Shown: one piece after another, positions 43,836 through 55,091 of the stretch | Position numbering within the stretch: position 1 is the first letter of the stretch | Layout: every line of letters starts with the position of its first letter | NCBI RefSeq assembly: GCF_002954245.1 | Contig: NZ_PPTG01000029.1 | Location: forward strand, 248,001-312,000 | Origin: Cryobacterium aureum | GTDB taxonomy: Bacteria; Actinomycetota; Actinomycetes; Actinomycetales; Microbacteriaceae | DNA: 64,000 bases | Direction of reading: 5' to 3' | Translations under genes and position numbers: made by a program | The notes under the pieces: model-generated | What the model saw: only the letters and a program-made list of their open reading frames with translations | Told to the model about the DNA's origin: nothing | Database searches by the model: none

Positions 43836-45116
43836 GTGCCCGCACTCGGCGCGCTCGTGGCCGAGCCCCTGTTTCTGCTGGCCGATTCGGCCATGGTCGG
43901 GCACCTCGGAACGACACCGCTGGCCGGACTCGGCCTGGCCAGCGCTGTGCTGCAGACCATCATCGGTCTCATGGTCTTTCTCGCCTACAGCACCACCCCG
44001 GCCGTGGCCCGCTGGCTCGGGGCCGGCGACACGCGCCGGGCGGTGTCGGTCGGGATCGACGGGCTCTGGCTTGCCCTCGGCCTGGGCGTGCTGCTCGCGG
44101 CCTTCGGCCTGCTCGCTACCCCGGCGCTGGTCGGAGCGTTCGGCGCCGAAACGGCCGTGACAGCGGATGCCGCCAGCTACCTCGGCATCTCCATGTTCGG
44201 CCTGCCCGCCATGCTGCTGGTGTTCGCCGCCACCGGGCTGCTGCGCGGCCTGCAGGACACCCGTACCCCGCTCTACGTGGCCAGCATCGGTTTCGGCGCG
44301 AACATCGCGCTCAACTACGTGTTCATCTACCTGCTCGACTGGGGCATCGCCGGCTCGGCCGTCGGCACCGTCGTGGCTCAGTGGGGCATGGTCACCGTCT
44401 ACCTCGTTGTGGTCACCAAACACGCCCGGCACCACCTCGCGCCGCTGCGTCCGCATCGAAAAGGCATGTTGCTCGGCGCCCGGAGCGGCGGCTGGCTATT
44501 CCTCCGCACACTGAGCCTGCGCGCCGCCATGCTGCTCGCGGTGTTCGTCGCCGCGCAGCTCGGCTCCCCCGAACTCGCCGCCTTTCAGATCGCCATGACC
44601 CTGTTCGCGACGCTCGCCTTCGCCCTCGACGCCCTCGCGATCGCCGCCCAGGCCCTCGTCGGGCGCGGCCTCGGCGCCGGAGATGTGGCGCAGGTTCGCG
44701 CTGTGCTCCGCCGGTGCCTGGAGTGGGGCCTACTCGCCGGCCTCGTTCTCGCGGTCGTCGTGATCGGCACGAGCGGGGTGCTCGGGCACGCATTCACGAA
44801 TTCTGACGCGGTCACCCGGCTGCTGCCGGCAACCCTGATCGTGCTGGGGGCATCCGTCCCCCTCGGCGCGGTCGTGTTCGTGCTCGACGGTGTGCTGATC
44901 GGAGCCGGCGACGCCCGATACCTGGCCCTGACCGGGCTGATCAACTTCGCCGTCTTCGTACCGCTCGCTGTCGCCGTGCTGCTGTTGGCGCCAGCGGGAG
45001 CGCCCGGGCTCGCGCTGCTCATGGCAGCGTTCGCGCTCGGCTACCTCGGAGCGCGGGCTGTGACGCTCGGCCTGCGCGCCCGCAGCCTGGCCTGGATGGT
45101 CATCGGCGCGCGCTAA
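43836..45116 (+). CDS. MATE family efflux transporter
   Basis: Multidrug and toxin extrusion transporter of the DinF type (426 residues, about 12 helices). ALGALVAEPLFLLADSAMVG and HLGTTPLAGLGLASAVLQ form the first helices, and the repeat half begins near residue 220. GTG 43836 is the first canonical start. The frame stays open back to 43776 and encodes IDRDILRLA, which is normal family sequence, so the true start is likely upstream at a non-standard codon. The gene converges on the aldehyde dehydrogenase with a four-base overlap and is not part of that cluster. Confidence 0.9.
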   Translation: MPALGALVAEPLFLLADSAMVGHLGTTPLAGLGLASAVLQTIIGLMVFLAYSTTPAVARWLGAGDTRRAVSVGIDGLWLALGLGVLLAAFGLLATPALVGAFGAETAVTADAASYLGISMFGLPAMLLVFAATGLLRGLQDTRTPLYVASIGFGANIALNYVFIYLLDWGIAGSAVGTVVAQWGMVTVYLVVVTKHARHHLAPLRPHRKGMLLGARSGGWLFLRTLSLRAAMLLAVFVAAQLGSPELAAFQIAMTLFATLAFALDALAIAAQALVGRGLGAGDVAQVRAVLRRCLEWGLLAGLVLAVVVIGTSGVLGHAFTNSDAVTRLLPATLIVLGASVPLGAVVFVLDGVLIGAGDARYLALTGLINFAVFVPLAVAVLLLAPAGAPGLALLMAAFALGYLGARAVTLGLRARSLAWMVIGAR

Positions 45117-46603
45117 ACCGTCGAGCGGATGCGGCGGTGCACCGACTGCGGCGAGAGATAGGCCTTGAGCCCCTCCGGTCCGAACTCGGCGCCGAGGCCC
45201 GAATCGTGCCGGCCGGCGAACGGCGCTGCATGGTTGGAGGCGAAGAAGCCGAGGCCGACCGATCCGGTATCGAGGCGCCCGGCGAGCGCGAACGCCCGGT
45301 CGGGGTCTGCGGAGAAGATCGTGCCGCCGAGCCCGAATGACGTGTTGTTGGCGAGCGCCACTCCCTCGTCGATCGAGGAGTAACGCAGGATCGACAGCAC
45401 CGGTCCGAAGATCTCTTCCCGGGCGATGCGCATGTCCGGCGTCACGTCGGCGAACACCGTCGGCTTCACGAAAAATCCCAGATCAAAGCCGGAAGGCACG
45501 TCGCCGCCGGTGGTAGCGCGGGCACCTTCGGACACGCCGCTGCGAAGATACTCGCGCACGGTCTGCTCCTGGGCGCGCGTGGCAGCCGGCCCGAACACGG
45601 TGTCGGGCTCCATCGGATCGCCCTGTTTGGCAGCCGCGATGGTGGCGGTGACCATATCGACGAGCTCGTCGTAGCGCTCGGCCGGGGCGAGAATTCGGGT
45701 CGAAATGTAACAGGTTTGCCCGGTGTTGCGCAGGCAGGTGCGAATCAGCACCGTCGACAGGGCGTCGAGGTCGACGTCGGGCAGCACGAGCGCCGACGAC
45801 TTTCCCCCCAGTTCGAGCGTGACCGGTCGCAGCAACTGCCCGCAAGCCCCGGCGATCGTGCGGCCGACCGGGGTCGACCCGGTGAAGGCCACCTTGTCGA
45901 TGCCGCGGTGCTTGACCAGCGCGTCGCCGAACGAGCCGGGGCCGGTGACGAGGTTGATCACCCCGGCGGGGATTCCAGCGGCGACGGCGGCGTCGATGAT
46001 GAGCCGCACCGACAGCGGCGTCGGCGAGGCCGGTTTGATCACGACGGTGCAGCCGGCCATCAGGGCCGGCGCGAGCTTGGCGACGACGAGGTTGATCGGA
46101 AAATTCCACGGCGCGATTAGCGCGCAGACCCCGATCGGGTCCTGCCGCACCACGGTTTCGCCCGATCCGTCGGGAAAGGGGCGAACGTCGGGCGTCTCGA
46201 GCAGGCCGGCGAGCGAGGCGAAGTAACGAAAAATCGAGGCGGCGTTGCCGGCGGCCCGCGAGGATTCCGCAACCGGCGACCCGTTCTCCCAGGTGTTGGT
46301 GTGCGAGATGGCCTCGGCGCGCTTGTCGACCTCGTCGGCCAGCCGCAGCAGAAAGCCGGCGCGGTCTGTGGGGGTCAGGGCGCGCCATCCGCTGAACGCA
46401 CGGCGGGCGGCCCCCACGACACGGTCGAGATCGGCGACGGACGCCTGCGGCACCGACCCCCAGACCTCCTCCGTTGCCGGGTTGGTCACCAGGGTACGGC
46501 CGACACCGGTGGCCGGCGACCAGTCTCCGTCGATGAAGAGGTCGTCGGTGTGCCGGTAGGGCAGGTTGGCGGTCACCGGCTTAGCGTCTACCAGGCTGGT
46601 CAT
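45113..46603 (-). CDS. Aldehyde dehydrogenase of the P450 cluster (CreC-like role)
   Basis: NAD(P)-dependent aldehyde dehydrogenase, 496 residues. It has the catalytic Glu in TLELGGKSSALVLPD, the catalytic Cys in RNTGQTCYIS, the cofactor region APWNFPINLVVAKLAPALMA and the C-terminal EEIFGPVLSIL. The start ATG 46603 overlaps the HD gene stop (ATGA), tying it to the cluster. In the proposed pathway it would oxidise the side-chain aldehyde, for example a 4-hydroxybenzaldehyde, to the acid. The substrate is inferred from context. It is the last gene of the co-directional block. Confidence 0.93.
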   Translation of the reverse strand: MTSLVDAKPVTANLPYRHTDDLFIDGDWSPATGVGRTLVTNPATEEVWGSVPQASVADLDRVVGAARRAFSGWRALTPTDRAGFLLRLADEVDKRAEAISHTNTWENGSPVAESSRAAGNAASIFRYFASLAGLLETPDVRPFPDGSGETVVRQDPIGVCALIAPWNFPINLVVAKLAPALMAGCTVVIKPASPTPLSVRLIIDAAVAAGIPAGVINLVTGPGSFGDALVKHRGIDKVAFTGSTPVGRTIAGACGQLLRPVTLELGGKSSALVLPDVDLDALSTVLIRTCLRNTGQTCYISTRILAPAERYDELVDMVTATIAAAKQGDPMEPDTVFGPAATRAQEQTVREYLRSGVSEGARATTGGDVPSGFDLGFFVKPTVFADVTPDMRIAREEIFGPVLSILRYSSIDEGVALANNTSFGLGGTIFSADPDRAFALAGRLDTGSVGLGFFASNHAAPFAGRHDSGLGAEFGPEGLKAYLSPQSVHRRIRSTV

Positions 46604-47283
46604 GCGCCGCTGCCGTCGAGCGCGGGCGCGTCGATGCCGGTGGCCAGCACCTCCGTTTGTAGCAGGGCTTCGGCGCGGTCGAGCTCGGTGAGAGCCATCT
46701 CGTGTGCGGCCGCGGTGATCAGCTCGGGAAGGATGTCGGTGCGCAGCCGCCGGCAATAAGCGGATGGCTCCTGGCCGAACCAGCCGGAGGCGAGCGCGAT
46801 GCCGGTGGTGGTGAAGCGCCAGAGGCGATCCGCGTCGCGCACGAGGGAATCCTCGATCGAGTAGCTCTCGGTGCGGGTGTCGTGCCCATCGATGATGTCG
46901 GTGACGCGCGCCACGAAGTCCAGATCGTAGCCGAGAGCTGGCAGCACCTCGCGGGCGATCTCGCAGCCCTTGATCTCGTGTTCGTAGCGGATGTCGGCCT
47001 GCCGCCAGTTGGCGCCAAACCCCTCCGAAATAATTTTGGTCTCGTCGACCCGGGCCCAGCCGGTGTCGTGCAGCAGGATTGCCACGCGCACGACGAGCGC
47101 ATCCGCCTCGGGGTAGGCCAGGCAGAGACGCTCGGCGAACGCGAACGAGATGGGAATGTGGATGTCATTCGAGCGCGAGCGCATCTCGGGGCGCACCGCC
47201 CGCCAGAGGGCGTTGAGGTCGACCGAGGTGACCCCCGCCGCGATGGGGGAGGTGTCGACGAGTTCTTCGGTCTGCAGTGTCAT
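46600..47283 (-). CDS. HD-domain phosphohydrolase, proposed aryl-phosphate phosphatase (CreD-like)
   Basis: Metal-dependent HD-superfamily protein, 227 residues. A His in NDIHIPISFAFAERL, the HD pair in VRVAILLHDTGWARVD, later His residues in RYEHEIKGCEIARE and IIDGHDTR, and the terminal Asp in VRDADRLWRF give the full H-HD-D metal set. HD proteins hydrolyse phosphomonoesters or nucleotides. In the Corynebacterium Cre system a phosphohydrolase removes the phosphate placed on the phenol, and this gene occupies that niche. It sits four bases after the reductase gene and overlaps the dehydrogenase gene. Confidence 0.85.
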   Translation of the reverse strand: MTLQTEELVDTSPIAAGVTSVDLNALWRAVRPEMRSRSNDIHIPISFAFAERLCLAYPEADALVVRVAILLHDTGWARVDETKIISEGFGANWRQADIRYEHEIKGCEIAREVLPALGYDLDFVARVTDIIDGHDTRTESYSIEDSLVRDADRLWRFTTTGIALASGWFGQEPSAYCRRLRTDILPELITAAAHEMALTELDRAEALLQTEVLATGIDAPALDGSGA

Positions 47284-47287
47284 GGGG

Positions 47288-48553
47288 TCACTTTCCGATC
47301 AAAACGGGCACGGCAGGAAGGAATAGTTTCTTGAGCGGCAGCGACAGGTCGTCGGCGCGGTCTGCGGGCAGGTGCTGCCCGGAGTGCAGCATGGCGCGCA
47401 CGGCGATGAAGTCGAGCGGCCGGTTCACGCAGTCGGCGGCGATGAGTTGCCCGGCGCGGTAGTACAGCACCGAGAACTTCTCGGTCTCGGGGTCACCGCG
47501 CAGCACGATCTGGTCGTGGCCGCCGCTGAGACCGGCGATCTGCAGTTTGAGGTCGGCCTGGTCGCTCCAGAACCACGGCACGGTCGAGTATTCGGCCGGC
47601 AGGCGAAGCAGCGTCGCGGCGGCGACCTTGGCCTGCTCGACCGCATTCTGCACGCTTTCAAGGCGAAGCCTCTCGATGCCGCCGGGGGTCAGCGAAGGGT
47701 TCGGCAGGTTGGCGCAGTCTCCCGCGGCCACGGTGAGGCCGTCGGAGCAGAGCGCGCTCGAGTCGACGACAATGCCGTTGTCGACCGCAAGACCGAGCTG
47801 TTTGGCTAGTTCGGTACGTGGGATGACGCCGACGCCAATGAGTACGACGTCGGCCGGGATCACGTCGCCGCTGGCCAGTTCGACCCCGGTCACCCGGTCG
47901 TGCGACCCGACAAATCGGCTGACCTGGGCGTTCAGGACCACCCGGGTGCCGCGGCGCCGGTGCGCCGCGAGGTAGAACGCGCTCGTCGCTTCGGAGACGG
48001 CTCGGCCGACGAGTCGGGGCGCAGCCTCCAGTACGGTCACGGTCTTGCCGGCAGCGCGGGCTCCGGCCGCTACCTCGAGTCCGATGAACCCGCCGCCGAC
48101 GACGACCACGTTCTGGGCCGTGTGCAGTCTCTGTTCGAGAAGGGCGGCATCCGTTGCTGTGCGCAGGTAGCTGACGCCCCCGAGTTCACTGCCCTCGAAT
48201 GGAATCTGGCGCGGAATGGCGCCGGTGGTGAGGGCGAGCCGGGCAAATTCGAACCGCCGGCCGGACTGCGCCGTGGCCACCCCGCCAGTCGAGTCGCGCT
48301 CCATGGAGACGATGCGTTCCCGCGTGACGAGCTCAATTCTGTGCTCGGCGTAGAACTCGTGGGTGCGAAAGGTGAGCGAGTCGGCCGTGGCGTCGCCCTT
48401 GAGAAACGCCTTCGACAGCGGCGGGCGTTGGTACGGCGCGTGCGGCTCTTCGCCGACGAGCACGATCGGCTCGGTATCGCCGAGTTCGCGCAGACTCGAC
48501 GCGAGCTGCACGCCGGCCTGGCAGGCGCCAATGATGAGGGTTCCGGTTCGCAT
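47288..48553 (-). CDS. Ferredoxin reductase for the P450 system (CreE-like)
   Basis: FAD- and NAD(P)H-dependent reductase of the putidaredoxin/rhodocoxin-reductase type (421 residues). The N-terminal FAD fold reads LIIGACQAGVQLASSLRELG, with Ala-Cys where most families have Gly-x-Gly. The second fold is VVVGGGFIGLEVAAGARAAG. The FAD-closing motif is VAAGDCANLPNPSLTPG. It passes electrons to the neighbouring 2Fe-2S ferredoxin, which serves the P450. It lies three bases after the ferredoxin gene and four before the HD gene. Confidence 0.93.
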   Translation of the reverse strand: MRTGTLIIGACQAGVQLASSLRELGDTEPIVLVGEEPHAPYQRPPLSKAFLKGDATADSLTFRTHEFYAEHRIELVTRERIVSMERDSTGGVATAQSGRRFEFARLALTTGAIPRQIPFEGSELGGVSYLRTATDAALLEQRLHTAQNVVVVGGGFIGLEVAAGARAAGKTVTVLEAAPRLVGRAVSEATSAFYLAAHRRRGTRVVLNAQVSRFVGSHDRVTGVELASGDVIPADVVLIGVGVIPRTELAKQLGLAVDNGIVVDSSALCSDGLTVAAGDCANLPNPSLTPGGIERLRLESVQNAVEQAKVAAATLLRLPAEYSTVPWFWSDQADLKLQIAGLSGGHDQIVLRGDPETEKFSVLYYRAGQLIAADCVNRPLDFIAVRAMLHSGQHLPADRADDLSLPLKKLFLPAVPVLIGK

Positions 48554-48556
48554 GGT

Positions 48557-48868
48557 CTACACCTGCGTTTCGGGAGTGGTGACGCGAATATCGGTGTCGC
48601 GCAGCTTGAGCTGGCAAGACAGCCGGGAGTTGGACTCGCGGTCGACGGCGGTGCCGTCGAGCATGTCGTCCTCGAGGTCCTCCATGGGAGGAAAGACGCT
48701 GTCGGCGCAGACGAAGACGTGGCAGGTGGCACAGGAGAGACTGCCGCCGCACTCGGCGACGATGCCGGGAACGCCGTTGCGCACGGCGGTCTCCATGACG
48801 GAGTCGCCGGCGAATCCCGCGACGGCCGTTTCACTGCCGGTGGCAGAAATATAGGTTACAGAGGGCAT
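48557..48868 (-). CDS. 2Fe-2S ferredoxin, putidaredoxin type (CreF-like)
   Basis: Adrenodoxin/putidaredoxin-type ferredoxin of 103 residues. The four cluster ligands are seen in AECGGSLSCATCHVFV (C-x5-C-x2-C) and SRLSCQLKL about 36 residues on. The acidic PPMEDLEDDMLDG segment, which docks to partners in this family, is present. The ATG at 48868 follows AAGGAG at good spacing; a longer frame is not family-like. It is the natural electron donor of the cluster's P450. Confidence 0.95.
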   Translation of the reverse strand: MPSVTYISATGSETAVAGFAGDSVMETAVRNGVPGIVAECGGSLSCATCHVFVCADSVFPPMEDLEDDMLDGTAVDRESNSRLSCQLKLRDTDIRVTTPETQV

Positions 48869-48878
48869 TGAGATCTCC

Positions 48879-49661
48879 TTACAAAAACTGTCGGCCACCG
48901 TCGACCACGAGGGTCTGGCCGGTGATGTAGCGGGAGCCGGGGCCGGCCAGAAACAGGGCGGCCCTGACGATGTCGTCGGGCTCGCTAGCCCGTTTGATGG
49001 AGCCGCGGTCGACGCCGTACTCGGCGGCGCCCTCGATCAGGCCGTAGCTGGCCTCGGTGAGGGTGAAGCCGGGGGCGATCGCGTTCACGGTGATATTGCG
49101 GTCGCCGAGTTCCTTGGCGAGCACCCGGGTGAGGGCGATCACGCCGCCCTTCGAGGCCACGTAGTGCGCCCACTGGGCGGATCCGCTGAGCACGGTCGCG
49201 CTCGACAAGTTGATCACCGCGGCCCCGTCAGCCAGATAGGGCGAGCAGGCGCGGGTGACCAGCCAGGGGCCCTTGAGGTTGACGGCCATCACACGGTCCC
49301 ACTCGTCGACGTCGATCTCCTCGAACGGCGACCGGGTGATGGTGGCGTAGATCGCCGCGTTGTTGATGATGACGTCGATCCGGCCGTTCTCACCAGCGAA
49401 CGCCGCGGCATCCGCTGCCAGCTGGGTGACTGAGTCGAGCTGCGTGACGTTAGCCGCGAGGGCGAGGGCGGTGCCGCCGGCCGCCTCGAGGAGCGCCACG
49501 GTCTGCTGAGCGCCCTCGAGGTTGGTGTCGGCGACGACCACCCGGTCACCCTGGGCCGCAAAGCCCAGGGCAAAGGCACGGCCCAGCCCGCCGGCGGCGC
49601 CGGTGATCAGCACCGTTCGAACAGGTCCAAGAGCGGGCTGGTCCGTGCGCGGATCAGGCAT
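48879..49661 (-). CDS. SDR alcohol dehydrogenase of the P450 cluster (CreG-like role)
   Basis: Classical short-chain dehydrogenase, 260 residues. It has the cofactor loop LITGAAGGLGRAFALGFAAQ, the NNAA motif in VIINNAAIYATI, catalytic Ser in INLSSATVL and Tyr-Lys in HYVASKGGVIAL, then VNAIAPGFTLTE. It overlaps the PEP-utilising gene by eight bases and precedes the ferredoxin by ten. In the proposed pathway it oxidises the hydroxylated alkyl side chain to the aldehyde. The substrate is inferred from context. Confidence 0.92.
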   Translation of the reverse strand: MPDPRTDQPALGPVRTVLITGAAGGLGRAFALGFAAQGDRVVVADTNLEGAQQTVALLEAAGGTALALAANVTQLDSVTQLAADAAAFAGENGRIDVIINNAAIYATITRSPFEEIDVDEWDRVMAVNLKGPWLVTRACSPYLADGAAVINLSSATVLSGSAQWAHYVASKGGVIALTRVLAKELGDRNITVNAIAPGFTLTEASYGLIEGAAEYGVDRGSIKRASEPDDIVRAALFLAGPGSRYITGQTLVVDGGRQFL

Positions 49662-51570
49662 GGCTGCCTTCGAGAACGGGGCCGTCCAGCGCCTGCTCCA
49701 ATTGAATGACCGCGTCGCCGGCCAGGCTGAGGTCGTGCTTGTGCCCCTCAGCGGCCTGATCGTCGACGATGGTGACGGTGCCGTTGTTGCCGTCGACGCG
49801 CAGCCACTGCCCGGTCACGATCTGCGACGAGGCTGTACCGGTTCCAGTGACGGCCGGCATGCCGTATTCCCGGCAGACGATGGCCGCGTGGCTCATCATG
49901 CCGCCGATGTCGGTGACCGTGGCCCGAATCTTGCCGAAGATCGGTCCCCACGACGGTGCCGTGACGGGGGCGACGAGGATGTCACCCTCCTGCACCTCGG
50001 ACAGCTGGTCAGAGCTGCTAATGACCCGGGCCGGTCCTTCGGCCACACCGCTCGAGGCCGCCATGCCGCGGAATTCTCCCTCCGGTGCGTCGGAATCGCC
50101 GAGCCAGTTCTTGATCTGGTCGCTCGTGATGCCCCAGAGCATGAGGGTGAACGGTTCGGTGATGACGGCCGGTGGGGTGTTGAGGGCGGGCTGCGGGCGC
50201 TGCTGCTGCAGGGCATCCACTATGACGCGGCGACGCTCGACCTCCTCTGGCCAGTACGACGGGCCGATCGCCGGAGCGCCGACCGCCCAACCGGTGACGT
50301 AGTCAAACAGGGCCTCGCGCACCTCGTCGCGGCGCAGAAAGAACATGCCGTCGGCGTCAGGCCAGAAGCCTTGCTCCTGCAGCATCGCCGAAAGCTGGCG
50401 GGCCTTGCGCCAGAACACGCCCATGGTCCAGTGCTCGATGTAGAAGTTGTGGTTCTCGACGTAGGGGTAGACCTGGCGGGCCAGGCCGAGCTTGCCCTCG
50501 AAGGCGGCGAGCTGTTCGGGGCTGAGCAGCTCCGAGTACTCCTCAGTGATGCGGTCGCGTTCGGCGACCAGTTCGGCGACCGGGCGGTCGATGGTCTGGC
50601 CGGCCTGCAGGCGAGCGATGTAGTCGCTGATGTAGCCGAGCGGCAGTTCGAGGTGGTCGAGCCAGTACTTGTCGTGGGCGTAGAAACCGTTGCCGACGGT
50701 GAAGTTGAACCACGGGTCCTTCGCCTCGTTGAAGGCGGCGATCCACTCGGCACCGCAATTAGCCGCTTCGATGCCGGCCAGGGTCTGCTCCGGGTTCGCG
50801 GTGTTACCGAACAGGCCGGTCAGGCCCAGTTCGATGGCGAGCTTGGCGAGCTTTTTGAGCTCGTCGTCTGGCCGGAACAGCTCCATGTCCACGCCCTGCA
50901 CCATCTTCGCGACGGCCTGGTCCGGAATGCCAGGAAAGACCTCCTTGCAGAAGCTGAAGAAGTCGAGGTAGGCCACGTAGCCGAGGTTGAGAAACTCGAA
51001 GTGGTACTGCCAGGCGCGGTAGGTGAGTGCGATCAGTGCGTCGTAATGGGCGAGCAGGTCGTTGTTCGGGCCGGTACCCTTGCCGCTCGTGACGTCATTG
51101 ATAGCGACTTTGTCGGGCAGGGCGTCGAAGTTGAGCGCGCCCAGCTCGTCGATCGTGCCGCGAATCTTGCCCTGCCACTGCTCGAGCAGGGTCTCCCAGT
51201 TCTGAAAGTAGTGGCCGGCGCGCACCATGAACTCGGGCACGCGCGGGGCGATCTCCGCCTCGGGCACTCCCACCGGCGACATGAACACGTAGCCGTTGTG
51301 AATGCGAAACTCGATGCCGTTGGCCGGCGGAATGAGCAGGTGGCGAGTGTTGTACTGGCCGAGGCACGACACGGCGAACTCGAAGCCGATCGTCTCGAAC
51401 GGCTTGGTCACGGTGGGCCAATGCTGGCTGTCGCAGAACCAGAACTTGGCCTCTTCGACCTCGCGGCGGTTCTCCTGGAACACCAGGTTGTAGGCGTATA
51501 GGTCTTTCCAGCCCTCGGCGCCCTCGGCCGGAGCCTGGTCATAGGGGCTGGGAAATGACTTCTCTGTCAT
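49654..51570 (-). CDS. PEP-utilising phosphohistidine protein, aryl-phosphate synthase subunit
   Basis: 638 residues in two parts. Residues 1-490 are a largely helical region with no motif I can assign; it probably binds the acceptor substrate. Residues about 510-605 form the swivelling phosphohistidine domain of PEP synthase-like enzymes, with the phospho-accepting His at about 561 in TDIGGMMSHAAIVCREYGMP and a preceding GDILVAPVTAPSW. The ATP-grasp half needed to load that His is missing here and is found fused to the P450 in the next gene upstream. Together they would form a split dikinase-type kinase like Cre 4-cresol phosphate synthase. The domain order resembles rifampin phosphotransferase. 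Confidence 0.88.
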   Translation of the reverse strand: MTEKSFPSPYDQAPAEGAEGWKDLYAYNLVFQENRREVEEAKFWFCDSQHWPTVTKPFETIGFEFAVSCLGQYNTRHLLIPPANGIEFRIHNGYVFMSPVGVPEAEIAPRVPEFMVRAGHYFQNWETLLEQWQGKIRGTIDELGALNFDALPDKVAINDVTSGKGTGPNNDLLAHYDALIALTYRAWQYHFEFLNLGYVAYLDFFSFCKEVFPGIPDQAVAKMVQGVDMELFRPDDELKKLAKLAIELGLTGLFGNTANPEQTLAGIEAANCGAEWIAAFNEAKDPWFNFTVGNGFYAHDKYWLDHLELPLGYISDYIARLQAGQTIDRPVAELVAERDRITEEYSELLSPEQLAAFEGKLGLARQVYPYVENHNFYIEHWTMGVFWRKARQLSAMLQEQGFWPDADGMFFLRRDEVREALFDYVTGWAVGAPAIGPSYWPEEVERRRVIVDALQQQRPQPALNTPPAVITEPFTLMLWGITSDQIKNWLGDSDAPEGEFRGMAASSGVAEGPARVISSSDQLSEVQEGDILVAPVTAPSWGPIFGKIRATVTDIGGMMSHAAIVCREYGMPAVTGTGTASSQIVTGQWLRVDGNNGTVTIVDDQAAEGHKHDLSLAGDAVIQLEQALDGPVLEGSHA

Positions 51571-51637: not shown

Positions 51638-54067
51638 TTATATCGTTGGCTTACCGGCCTGCACCAGTAGTGATCGGGTGATGCTCTCGATGCCGAAGTG
51701 CCTATTAACAGCGGCGGCTGTGGGAGCGGGGGCGGCGGCATCCGTTTTCGTGCCGGAGGAGTGCACGGTCTCGGGACGGGACTGCAGCAGCAACAGGTTC
51801 TGCCCATCGGGCAGGTCACGGTCGAGGGCCCACTCGATGTCCTGGGGGCATCTGAAGTGCTTCTCGGCCTTCTTGGCGATGGTCGCGATGGCGGTGATCT
51901 CGGTCTCGCTGATCGAAAGTACGGCGCGGCGCGCGGCCGAGACCTCGAGTTCGACCAGTGCCCTGTTGGCCGCATCGGGTACGAGCTCGGCGTGCTTGTC
52001 GCCGATCACCCGCTTAACCACCATGAGCATGATCTTGTCGACGGTGACGTTGTCGGGGGTGACGAGGCCGGAGACGACGAGTTCGCCGAGGCCGTAGGAG
52101 GCCTCCATGACGATCTTGGAGCGGTCGCCAGTGGTCGGATCCATGGTGATGGCGACGCCGGCGGCGCGGGCGTTGACCATCTTCTGCACGGCGACGGCCA
52201 TGGAGAGGCCCTCGTTCGGGATGTTGTTCCTGAGCCGATAGGTGATGGCGCGGGAGGTGAACAGTGACGCCCAGCAGCGACGGATGTGCTCGGTGACGTC
52301 GTCGATACCGTTCAGCCAGAGATAGGTGTCTTGCTGGCCGGCGAAGCTCGCGTCGGGCAGGTCTTCAGCCGTAGCAGAGGAGCGCACGGCCACCGGAACC
52401 GGCCCGCTGAACCTGGTTTGGAGCGCGTGGTACGCGGCAACGAAGTCGGCGCGCACGTCGGCGGGCACCGGGCGGCTTTCGATCTCGAACCGCAATTGGG
52501 CCGAGACCCGGTCGACCTCGGCCACGTCGTCGACGTCGAGGTTGGCCAGCAGCGCGTGAATGTCCTGCTCAATACCGGCGGCCGCGATGAAGGCGTCGTA
52601 GGAGGCCGTAGTGATGGCGAATCCGGGCGGCACCGGCATGCCGGCCTGGGTGAGGGCGACCAGCGAGGCGCATTTGCCGCCGAGCAGGTCGTGGCGGGGC
52701 GCATCCGTCCCATCAAAGAATTGAATGTACGGTGTGGTGGTCATGCCCGTTTCTCCCCAGGTAACGGGCACAGCGGTGGGCGCCCTAAACGACAGATTGT
52801 CTCCGAACACGATTCTTTCGGCGTCGATCAGGCGCAGTCCGGGGGCCGCCTTCAGGGTCTCTTCGACGACGATCTTGTCTTGCATCTTGGCGAGCATGTT
52901 GCCGAGGCAGTAGTGGATGCCGACGCCGAACGACAGGTGGTTGCGGGCGTTCACCCGGTTGATGTCAAAAATTTCAGGCTGTTCGAAGGTGCCAGGGTCG
53001 CGGTTGGCCGACCCCATCAGCAAGAGGATGTTCGACCCGGCGGGTATCTGCACGCCGCCGATCTCGGTGTCGACCAACGCCTTGCGTCGCCAGCCCACGA
53101 TGCTCGGGGAGAAGCGCAGCGTCTCGTCGATCGCGGCCGAGATACGGCTCGGGTCCTCGATGAGCTTCTGCCACTCGGCGGGATGGGCGAGCAGCTCGCG
53201 AATGGTGTTAGAGATGAGCGTGGTGGTGGTCTCGTGGCCGGCGAAGAGCAGGCTGTAACAGACCGAGGCGATCTCGTGGTCGGAGATCTCGGAGCCGGTG
53301 GACTGCGCCTGCACGAGGTCGAAGACGAGGTTGTCGCCGTTGTCGCCCTTCGCGAGCTGCTCGTGCGCGTTGGAGACGAGGCGCAGGCACTCGGTCCAGT
53401 AGTCAACGAGGTTGTGCGCGTGCGGAATCTGCTCGTCGTCGCTCAGGTCGCCCCAGGTCATCGCCGCGCGGGAATCGGACCACTTCTTGTAGGTCGAGAC
53501 CATCTCAGGCCCCACACCGAGCAAGCCAAGGATCGTGATCGTGGGGATGTCCACCGCGACGTCTTTCAAGAAGTCGCCTTGTCCGGTGGGGTGGGCCAGC
53601 ATCTGCTGCAGCAGGCGCGCGGTGTTCTCGCGAATGGTGGGTTCGAGGGCCTTGTAGCGACGGGGCGTGAATTCCTTCTGCACGATGGCGCGCATACGGG
53701 TGTGCTCAGGGGGAATGCGAGCGCTGAGGCCGGAGTAGGCGGTGAAGCCGCCGTCGTTCATGATTTTGGTGGCCGCGGCGCCGCGGGCCCGCACCGGGGC
53801 CTGGGCGTTCTCGCTGCTGAAGACCTTCCAGTTGTCGAAAATGGCCTTCACGTCGTCGTAGCGGGAAACGACGAAGTAGCCGATCTCGTCGTCAAACATG
53901 ACCGGTTCGTTGTCGCGCAGCGCGGTGTACGAGGGGAACGGATCGGTCATGGCGAACGGGGCATAACCGTGGTTCTTGGTGTTGGAACCGTGTTCCGGGG
54001 CGCCGTGGGCGACCGGGCATTGGCCGGTTGCGGCGGTCGGGTGGGCGGGTGCGGACTGAGCGGTCAC
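51638..54067 (-). CDS. Cytochrome P450 fused to a PEP/pyruvate-dikinase ATP-grasp domain
   Basis: 809 residues. Residues 1-441 are a soluble bacterial P450: I-helix oxygen motif AGHETTTT at 276-283, ETLR at 315-318 and haem loop FGVGIHYCLG with Cys387. Residues 442-809 are a PPDK/PEP-synthase N-terminal ATP-grasp domain: LLGGKCASLVALTQAGMPVP, VAVRSSATAEDLPDASFAGQ and LLLLQSRPET. At the joint the P450 tail VTWGETG continues directly into MTTTPYIQFF with no stop. The internal ATG at 52744 has GGGGAG nine bases upstream, so a separate second protein could also be made. The start is GTG 54067 after AAGGAG. Its partner is the phosphohistidine protein downstream. A recent loss of the stop between two formerly overlapping genes is plausible. 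Confidence 0.9.
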   Translation of the reverse strand: MTAQSAPAHPTAATGQCPVAHGAPEHGSNTKNHGYAPFAMTDPFPSYTALRDNEPVMFDDEIGYFVVSRYDDVKAIFDNWKVFSSENAQAPVRARGAAATKIMNDGGFTAYSGLSARIPPEHTRMRAIVQKEFTPRRYKALEPTIRENTARLLQQMLAHPTGQGDFLKDVAVDIPTITILGLLGVGPEMVSTYKKWSDSRAAMTWGDLSDDEQIPHAHNLVDYWTECLRLVSNAHEQLAKGDNGDNLVFDLVQAQSTGSEISDHEIASVCYSLLFAGHETTTTLISNTIRELLAHPAEWQKLIEDPSRISAAIDETLRFSPSIVGWRRKALVDTEIGGVQIPAGSNILLLMGSANRDPGTFEQPEIFDINRVNARNHLSFGVGIHYCLGNMLAKMQDKIVVEETLKAAPGLRLIDAERIVFGDNLSFRAPTAVPVTWGETGMTTTPYIQFFDGTDAPRHDLLGGKCASLVALTQAGMPVPPGFAITTASYDAFIAAAGIEQDIHALLANLDVDDVAEVDRVSAQLRFEIESRPVPADVRADFVAAYHALQTRFSGPVPVAVRSSATAEDLPDASFAGQQDTYLWLNGIDDVTEHIRRCWASLFTSRAITYRLRNNIPNEGLSMAVAVQKMVNARAAGVAITMDPTTGDRSKIVMEASYGLGELVVSGLVTPDNVTVDKIMLMVVKRVIGDKHAELVPDAANRALVELEVSAARRAVLSISETEITAIATIAKKAEKHFRCPQDIEWALDRDLPDGQNLLLLQSRPETVHSSGTKTDAAAPAPTAAAVNRHFGIESITRSLLVQAGKPTI

Positions 54068-54146
54068 GATGGCTCCTTGTTTGCTTTTCTCAACTTTGAG
54101 GTCGACGAGGTCTGTCTAAGGCGCGTGGGTAACGAAATACTCCGGA

Positions 54147-54162
54147 CCATCCCACTGGATGG
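54147..54162. promoter_or_regulatory. Candidate operator upstream of the P450-fusion gene
   Basis: CCATC and GATGG arms separated by six bases lie in the 103-bp gap between the regulator and the P450-fusion gene. The spot fits an IclR-type operator, but the evidence is symmetry alone. Confidence 0.3.
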
Positions 54163-54170
54163 AAGTGGCT

Positions 54171-54977
54171 TCACTGTTGGGTGGGTTTTTGCATGCTGGC
54201 CGGCACGCGCAGGGCGGCGGCCGGCAGGTGCGCGATTCCGGCCTGGATGCGCTGCGCGGTGCCCTGCAGCACGGGCAGGTAACGCTCCAGCTGGTGGGCG
54301 CGAGAGGTAGGCAGCACGATGCCGAGCGCTCCGAAAATTTGACCGGGAGATTGGAATACCGGCACCGCGAGCGAGCACGAGCCCTGCCGCACTTCTTCGG
54401 AGGCGAGCGCGAATCCGGATTCCTTGATCTTGGCGAGTTCCCGGCGCAACTCGGCTGGGTCGGTCTTGGTGAGCGGGGTGCGGCGCACGAGTTCACCGTC
54501 GAGCACGGCGTTCTGCACCCACTCCTCCTCGAAAGCGAGAATGGCGCGACCAACGGCGGTGGCGTGCAAGGGCAGGCGTCCGCCGACCCGGCCGGCCTGC
54601 GGCACGCGCCGGCTGCCGTAGACCCGGTCGATGTAGAGCACCTCGGCGCCATCACGAATGGCGAGGTGCACGGTCTCCTGGGTGAGCCCGAACAGGTCTT
54701 GCAGGTAGGGGCGGGCGACATCGCGCAGCTTGCGACCGGCATGCTGGCCTAGTTCCCACAGGCGCAGGCCAATCTGGTAGCGGCCCTGGGCATCCCGTTG
54801 CACGGCACCCCACGTCTCGAGTTCGCCGAGCAGGCGGTGAGCTGTGCTCTGCGGCAGCCCACTTTCCCGGCTGATCTCCGACAGCGAGCGAGCGGATGCA
54901 CTGTGCTCGAACGCCGCCAGGAGGCTCAGCACGCGGCTGGTCACCGACTGGCCGGGGGCGTTCGCGCGACCGGCCAT
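54171..54977 (-). CDS. IclR family transcriptional regulator of the P450 cluster
   Basis: 268-residue regulator. The N-terminal winged helix reads RVLSLLAAFEHSASARSLSE then ISRESGLPQSTAHRLLGELE. The C-terminal effector domain has LPLHATAVGRAILAFEEEW and the late LGIVLPTSRAHQLERYLPVL. The ATG at 54977 with GAGG upstream is preferred to a TTG at 54992. It lies directly before the P450-fusion gene on the same strand. IclR proteins commonly control aromatic-compound catabolism and respond to a pathway metabolite, which fits the cluster. Confidence 0.93.
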   Translation of the reverse strand: MAGRANAPGQSVTSRVLSLLAAFEHSASARSLSEISRESGLPQSTAHRLLGELETWGAVQRDAQGRYQIGLRLWELGQHAGRKLRDVARPYLQDLFGLTQETVHLAIRDGAEVLYIDRVYGSRRVPQAGRVGGRLPLHATAVGRAILAFEEEWVQNAVLDGELVRRTPLTKTDPAELRRELAKIKESGFALASEEVRQGSCSLAVPVFQSPGQIFGALGIVLPTSRAHQLERYLPVLQGTAQRIQAGIAHLPAAALRVPASMQKPTQQ

Positions 54978-55091
54978 GGTGCCTCGTTTCAAGTTTTTCG
55001 CGCGCCGTCATCGCGCTGGCAGGCTCACTCTAGCCAGCGGCGGCCCGGCGGCGCGAGGGTCGAAAGTCCCCCATTCGGGGCCCGGCCAGGG

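Follow-up and report, generated by a model that had tools for sequence, protein, structure and literature searches.

A cytochrome P450 and an ATP-grasp kinase half in one reading frame within the cre operon of Cryobacterium aureum

Within the window, by which we mean the whole 64,000-nucleotide stretch of Cryobacterium aureum DNA that was analysed, a single open frame, 809 codons long and opened by GTG, runs on the minus strand from 54067 to 51638, and no internal stop separates the two domains that it encodes. The first part (52747–54067, residues 1–440) is a cytochrome P450, to which Pfam p450 aligns over residues 113–406 of the fused protein (E 1.8e-30) and which carries the haem motif FGVGIHYCLG with Cys387. 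The second part (51638–52744) starts from a former start codon, ATG at codon 442, and is an ATP-grasp domain (Pfam PPDK_N, residues 460–778, E 7.6e-107). An earlier note on this DNA had described a P450 with haem Cys387 followed in one frame by a dikinase-type ATP-grasp domain; the ORF listing and Pfam agree with that description, and the strand is the minus strand. Among solved chains, 5xjn/7ccf and 5gwe come closest to the P450 part, aligning over residues 29–438 at an E of about 1e-181; the structure table labels them simply cytochrome P450, and we take them to be CreJ. The fused gene, creJ-creI, is present in one full-length copy in its own genome, where a second P450 shares only 28 % identity with it. 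Opposite to it, on the plus strand (52286–54310), lies a 674-aa open frame that is probably a shadow frame owed to the high GC of the coding strand.

Downstream of the fused gene, and on the same strand, lie creH to creC. The nearest of these, creH (49654–51570), encodes the half of the dikinase that binds the phenol and contains the phosphohistidine swivel domain, with the sequence TDIGGMMSH containing His561 (Pfam PEP-utilizers, NCBIfam PRK08296). It is followed by creG (48879–49661; a short-chain dehydrogenase by Pfam), creF (48557–48898; a 2Fe-2S ferredoxin, Pfam Fer2), creE (47288–48553; a ferredoxin reductase, Pfam Pyr_redox_2 and Reductase_C), creD (46600–47283; an HD-domain phosphohydrolase, Pfam HD) and creC (45113–46603), a putative aldehyde dehydrogenase recognized by its operon position and the look of its sequence. 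The start of creC was set at the ATG overlapping the creD stop, and a creC orthologue adjoins creD in five of the eight loci compared. Upstream of creJ stands a gene for an IclR-type regulator (54171–54992, minus strand; Pfam HTH_IclR and IclR_C). The cre operon of Corynebacterium glutamicum runs from creC to creJ (cg0637–cg0645) in the order tabulated in PMC7764795, and its content, with a CreHI kinase and a CreJEF P450 system, as well as its creC–creJ order, match the window as far as that source sets them out. The same order is found in two Corynebacterium sp. loci, among others (L040). The window encodes a P450 of the CreJ type, a dikinase in two parts (ATP-grasp CreI by PPDK_N, and swivel CreH with a conserved histidine by PEP-utilizers and TDIGGMMSH) and, arranged as in C. 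glutamicum, a ferredoxin, a reductase, an HD phosphohydrolase and an alcohol dehydrogenase. It is a variant in that creI and creJ, which are separate genes in C. glutamicum, share one frame here. Judged from its sequence, the locus is a cre operon (creC-D-E-F-G-H-I-J), through which 4-cresol and similar alkylphenols would be degraded after an initial phosphorylation; the earlier attribution to the Cre alkylphenol system, with separate genes elsewhere, is borne out.

The fused frame is not a chance ORF, because both proteins in three close relatives are 90–94 % identical to its halves and because dN/dS for both halves against relatives L045, L046 and L050 is 0.07–0.13, values in which a recent joint would leave no trace. 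By this measure both halves of the gene are under purifying selection. A structure of the fused chain predicted from 74 aligned rows has a mean pLDDT of 84.5 and a pTM of 0.65. Confidence is good over most of each domain and drops below 50 at the joint, residues 440–443. As the prediction gives two confident domains, the chain can plausibly fold as two domains.

At the junction, in the region TGGGGAGAAACGGGCATGACC (52741–52765, minus strand), the P450 stop is lost and there are 27 bases from the Trp codon of the P450 to the Tyr codon of the kinase. The internal ATG at 52744 is kept, 15 bases ahead of the Tyr codon, and GGGGAG (52753–52758), a possible ribosome-binding site for it, stands eight bases further ahead; both elements, which the second domain was said to retain as its own, could be located. 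A search of the genus matched 20 of 57 genomes, among which only the window genome carries the two parts in a single frame. In all 19 other genomes with the pair the kinase is out of frame with the P450, and the idea that fusion is a conserved trait of the genus was rejected on these grounds. Measured in these 19 from the last P450 Trp codon to the kinase Tyr or Phe codon, the spacer is 26 bases in 14, 65 in four and 50 in one. The genes overlap by ATGA or GTGA in 14 (13 of those with 26 bases, plus L120) and by TGATG in four, and one (L127) has no overlap. Where the nearest relatives read GGAGAAACGAA-ATGA, the window reads GGAGAAACGGGCATGA, which is one base longer and carries substitutions too (GGC against AA in near relatives), the change in length amounting to one base within a short stretch of G (GGG). 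This comparison indicates that the two-gene overlapping state is ancestral in the genus and that the fusion is derived in the window. The fallback offered in the earlier note, a recent one-base change at a former gene overlap, accords with the spacer of 27 bases against 26 in 14 of the 19, and appears to be the best reading of the window fusion. In Cryobacterium breve (L066, L123) the kinase match starts only at query residue 535, its N-terminal part apparently being in another frame.

The fusion is thus read as a recent net one-base event at an overlapping creJ-creI pair, in this strain or its recent line, and we think this probable. Its main rival, which we rate as unlikely, is that sequencing or assembly added the base in error, the strain having two genes as its relatives do. 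Such an error would fit a single base in a G run, seen in one genome only, in a genus where every other member with the pair has two genes; in the strain's single assembly a base-calling error would, moreover, look identical. Against it, the junction bases differ by substitution and not in length alone. We looked for similar lesions by comparing 400,000 bases of the window contig with 202,745 bases of one relative (G412) and 400,000 of another (G405). Without a coding filter five split ORFs were flagged in the window genome, none of them with a Pfam match. With a GC3 filter, two and three were flagged in the window genome against the two relatives, and two and four in the relatives, the fusion itself being included in both of these last counts. 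When the flagged split ORFs were read individually, no other one-base frameshift was found in the window genome among the 102 ORFs shared with G412 and the 72 shared with G405. ORF 204 is a frameshift in G405 and not in the window genome, whereas in ORF 246 it is the window genome that is broken, by a larger deletion; ORFs 92 and 262 resemble shadow or overextended frames. Five others (ORFs 95, 207, 285, 76 and 260), with N-terminal differences only, were read as overextended starts, 285 being the least clear. Flags for in-frame stops fell on nine ORFs in the window genome (three and six by comparison) and on four and two in the relatives. A real mutation is favoured over a sequence error, short of proof, because no other one-base frameshift occurs among the ORFs compared; on the side of error stand the nine ORFs flagged for in-frame stops and a frame break of another kind in the window genome, near contig position 326300. 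There, at about 326200–326650 of contig C42 (L162), a larger deletion has split a gene whose G405 counterpart is whole (195 aa).

Searches were extended beyond the genus, with matches in 33 of 398 genomes of the family (at 1e-60), eight of 396 in the order, none of them but the window's having a single frame, and four of 394 in the class; a search around Prescottella matched 16 of 401 genomes (at 1e-120). From a wide search the best 80 of 552 stretches encoding relatives were kept (79 loci). The junction comparison covered 170 loci, with 31 raw stretches left out, and its 134 distinct rows comprised six fused, 118 separate and 10 without an adjacent pair; one locus (L180) is counted among the 118 although its junction is joined, a frameshift upstream in the P450 having hidden the fusion. 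None of the 22 matching plasmid records holds the fused form, and the two that cover at least 80 % of the query are both annotated as two genes. Among the open-access papers listed by literature searches, none dealt with a P450 joined to a dikinase-type ATP-grasp domain.

A CreJ-CreI fusion is common to six genomes around Prescottella, including Prescottella agglutinans (L034, L177–L182). Five of the 14 genomes of the genus of P. agglutinans matched, four of them in one uninterrupted frame; the fifth (G447; L180, L181) keeps the fused junction, and its P450 is broken by a frameshift near residue 392. The sixth fused genome (G535, L182) is a family member outside the genus Prescottella and the only match among six genomes of its own genus group; between its IclR-type gene and the fused gene there is, at L182:860–1306, a stretch that shares 42 % identity with CreD. 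The earlier note would have taken its claim as refuted if homologues were always encoded as a pair of genes overlapping by ATGA here: an ATGA or GTGA overlap is indeed what 14 of the 19 genus members have, whereas the six Prescottella-group genomes are truly fused. As in the window, their order is P450 and then ATP-grasp, and in L034 the whole cre operon surrounds the fusion. Their dedicated linkers of 27, 48 or 66 bases (between tblastn ends) vary in sequence and keep the frame, and after the last GTG codons of the P450 they contain no ATG, GTG or TTG with which the kinase could start, whereas the window keeps its ATG. A tree made by a quick method with SH-aLRT as its sole measure of support, from 99 of 123 rows after 24 near-redundant rows had been removed by hand, joins the six Prescottella-group fusions in one supported clade (99) and places the window as a lone tip among unfused Cryobacterium, on a branch of 0.041, similar to the 0.031–0.059 of its neighbours. 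On this tree the window fusion does not share descent with that of the Prescottella group, and the latter is of independent origin. A single origin of all fused forms was rejected, as well-supported branches force two state changes.

What the fused domain does can be considered by analogy with HpeHI, the two-component kinase of hydroxyphenylethanone catabolism (PMC12167813). As far as that source describes the system, HpeI is the ATP-grasp part, and HpeH holds the swivel and substrate parts with the motif T/SXXGGXXXH; the ATP-grasp protein binds ATP and phosphorylates a histidine on its partner (PMC12167813). The HpeH motif, as given there, is matched by TDIGGMMSH of the window CreH, whereas the HpeHI kinase includes no P450 and has a different substrate, and the window has its ATP-grasp part joined to a P450. 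By the HpeHI scheme, the fused domain would be CreI, the ATP-binding half that phosphorylates the CreH histidine, and CreH would hold the phenol. The proposal that fusion tethers substrate phosphorylation to oxidation therefore needs correcting: the P450 is tethered only to the ATP-binding half, which would not itself act on the phenol, and phosphate transfer to the phenol would need CreH, encoded by a separate gene and the one to hold the phenol under the scheme in PMC12167813. In the window, as in the three Prescottella loci inspected for this (L034, L177 and L182), creH is a gene apart from the fusion.

Under the one-base reading, creJ and creI, ancestrally separate with a four-base overlap, would have become one frame through the net gain of a base immediately ahead of that overlap. 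The main product would now be a CreJ-CreI protein of about 809 residues, both domains of which presumably fold and work as before. CreH would dock on the tethered CreI, take phosphate on His561 and pass it to the phenol; CreJ, with CreF and CreE, would then oxidize the methyl group of the aryl phosphate, and CreD would remove the phosphate last. The former start codon and its GGGGAG site survive, so that a certain amount of free CreI may still arise; its translation would begin anew and no longer be coupled to the P450 stop. We infer the function of the fused protein from sequence, and we expect the window fusion to be close to neutral.

Two further readings, whose likelihoods are not mutually exclusive with the foregoing since effects of channelling and dosage can add to a real event, concern what the joint would do. 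It might mainly change dosage, in that losing the stop-start coupling would lower free CreI and leave the fused P450 a minor or damaged product. The former overlap implied coupled translation, and the GGGGAG site and ATG are still present; both halves, however, are conserved without decay, and the fused Prescottella proteins show that the P450–kinase order is tolerated, which leaves this reading improbable. Still harder to credit is that selection has favoured the fusion as a functional architecture, channelling phosphorylated phenol from kinase to P450. The independent, same-order fusion in six Prescottella-group genomes, with in-frame linkers lacking a start codon, speaks for it; yet the fusion is a single tip in the window's line, any spacer peptide in the window amounts to a few residues at most, and the phenol would be phosphorylated on CreH and not on the fused CreI, judging from HpeHI as partially described, so that any channelling would be indirect.

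As a newborn one-base joint, the window fusion would show the first step of a route that the Prescottella group has completed. We tentatively put forward, as a possibility that we hold with some doubt, that the CreJ-CreI fusion, with at least two origins, is a genuine architecture open to selection, which equips a P450 with the ATP-grasp half of the kinase that activates its substrate. The window would then represent its birth by one base at a gene overlap, with free kinase still possible from the old start, and the Prescottella group its finished form without a start codon. Natural P450 fusions are mostly to electron-transfer partners, and one to a portion of a kinase that phosphorylates the substrate would be unusual. 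The one-base newborn and the old, fixed fusion with a linker make a ready pair for testing whether tethering helps, in a phosphorylate–oxidize–dephosphorylate route that is already in use for biocatalysis. More generally, four-base overlaps leave operon neighbours one indel short of fusion.

The same ATP-grasp and swivel domains as in the window CreI and CreH occur in rifampin phosphotransferase (RPH), a single-chain dikinase, and NCBIfam RIF_Ptrans_rph matches both window kinase proteins, below its cut-off. In RPH, however, the ATP-grasp part is joined to the substrate and swivel domains and not to a P450. A joint of the RPH kind is found in Kocuria dechangensis (L038:7276–10230), where CreI and CreH share one 985-aa, rifampin-phosphotransferase-like frame; no other of the 125 adjacent pairs, a per-locus count that includes duplicates, is joined in this way.
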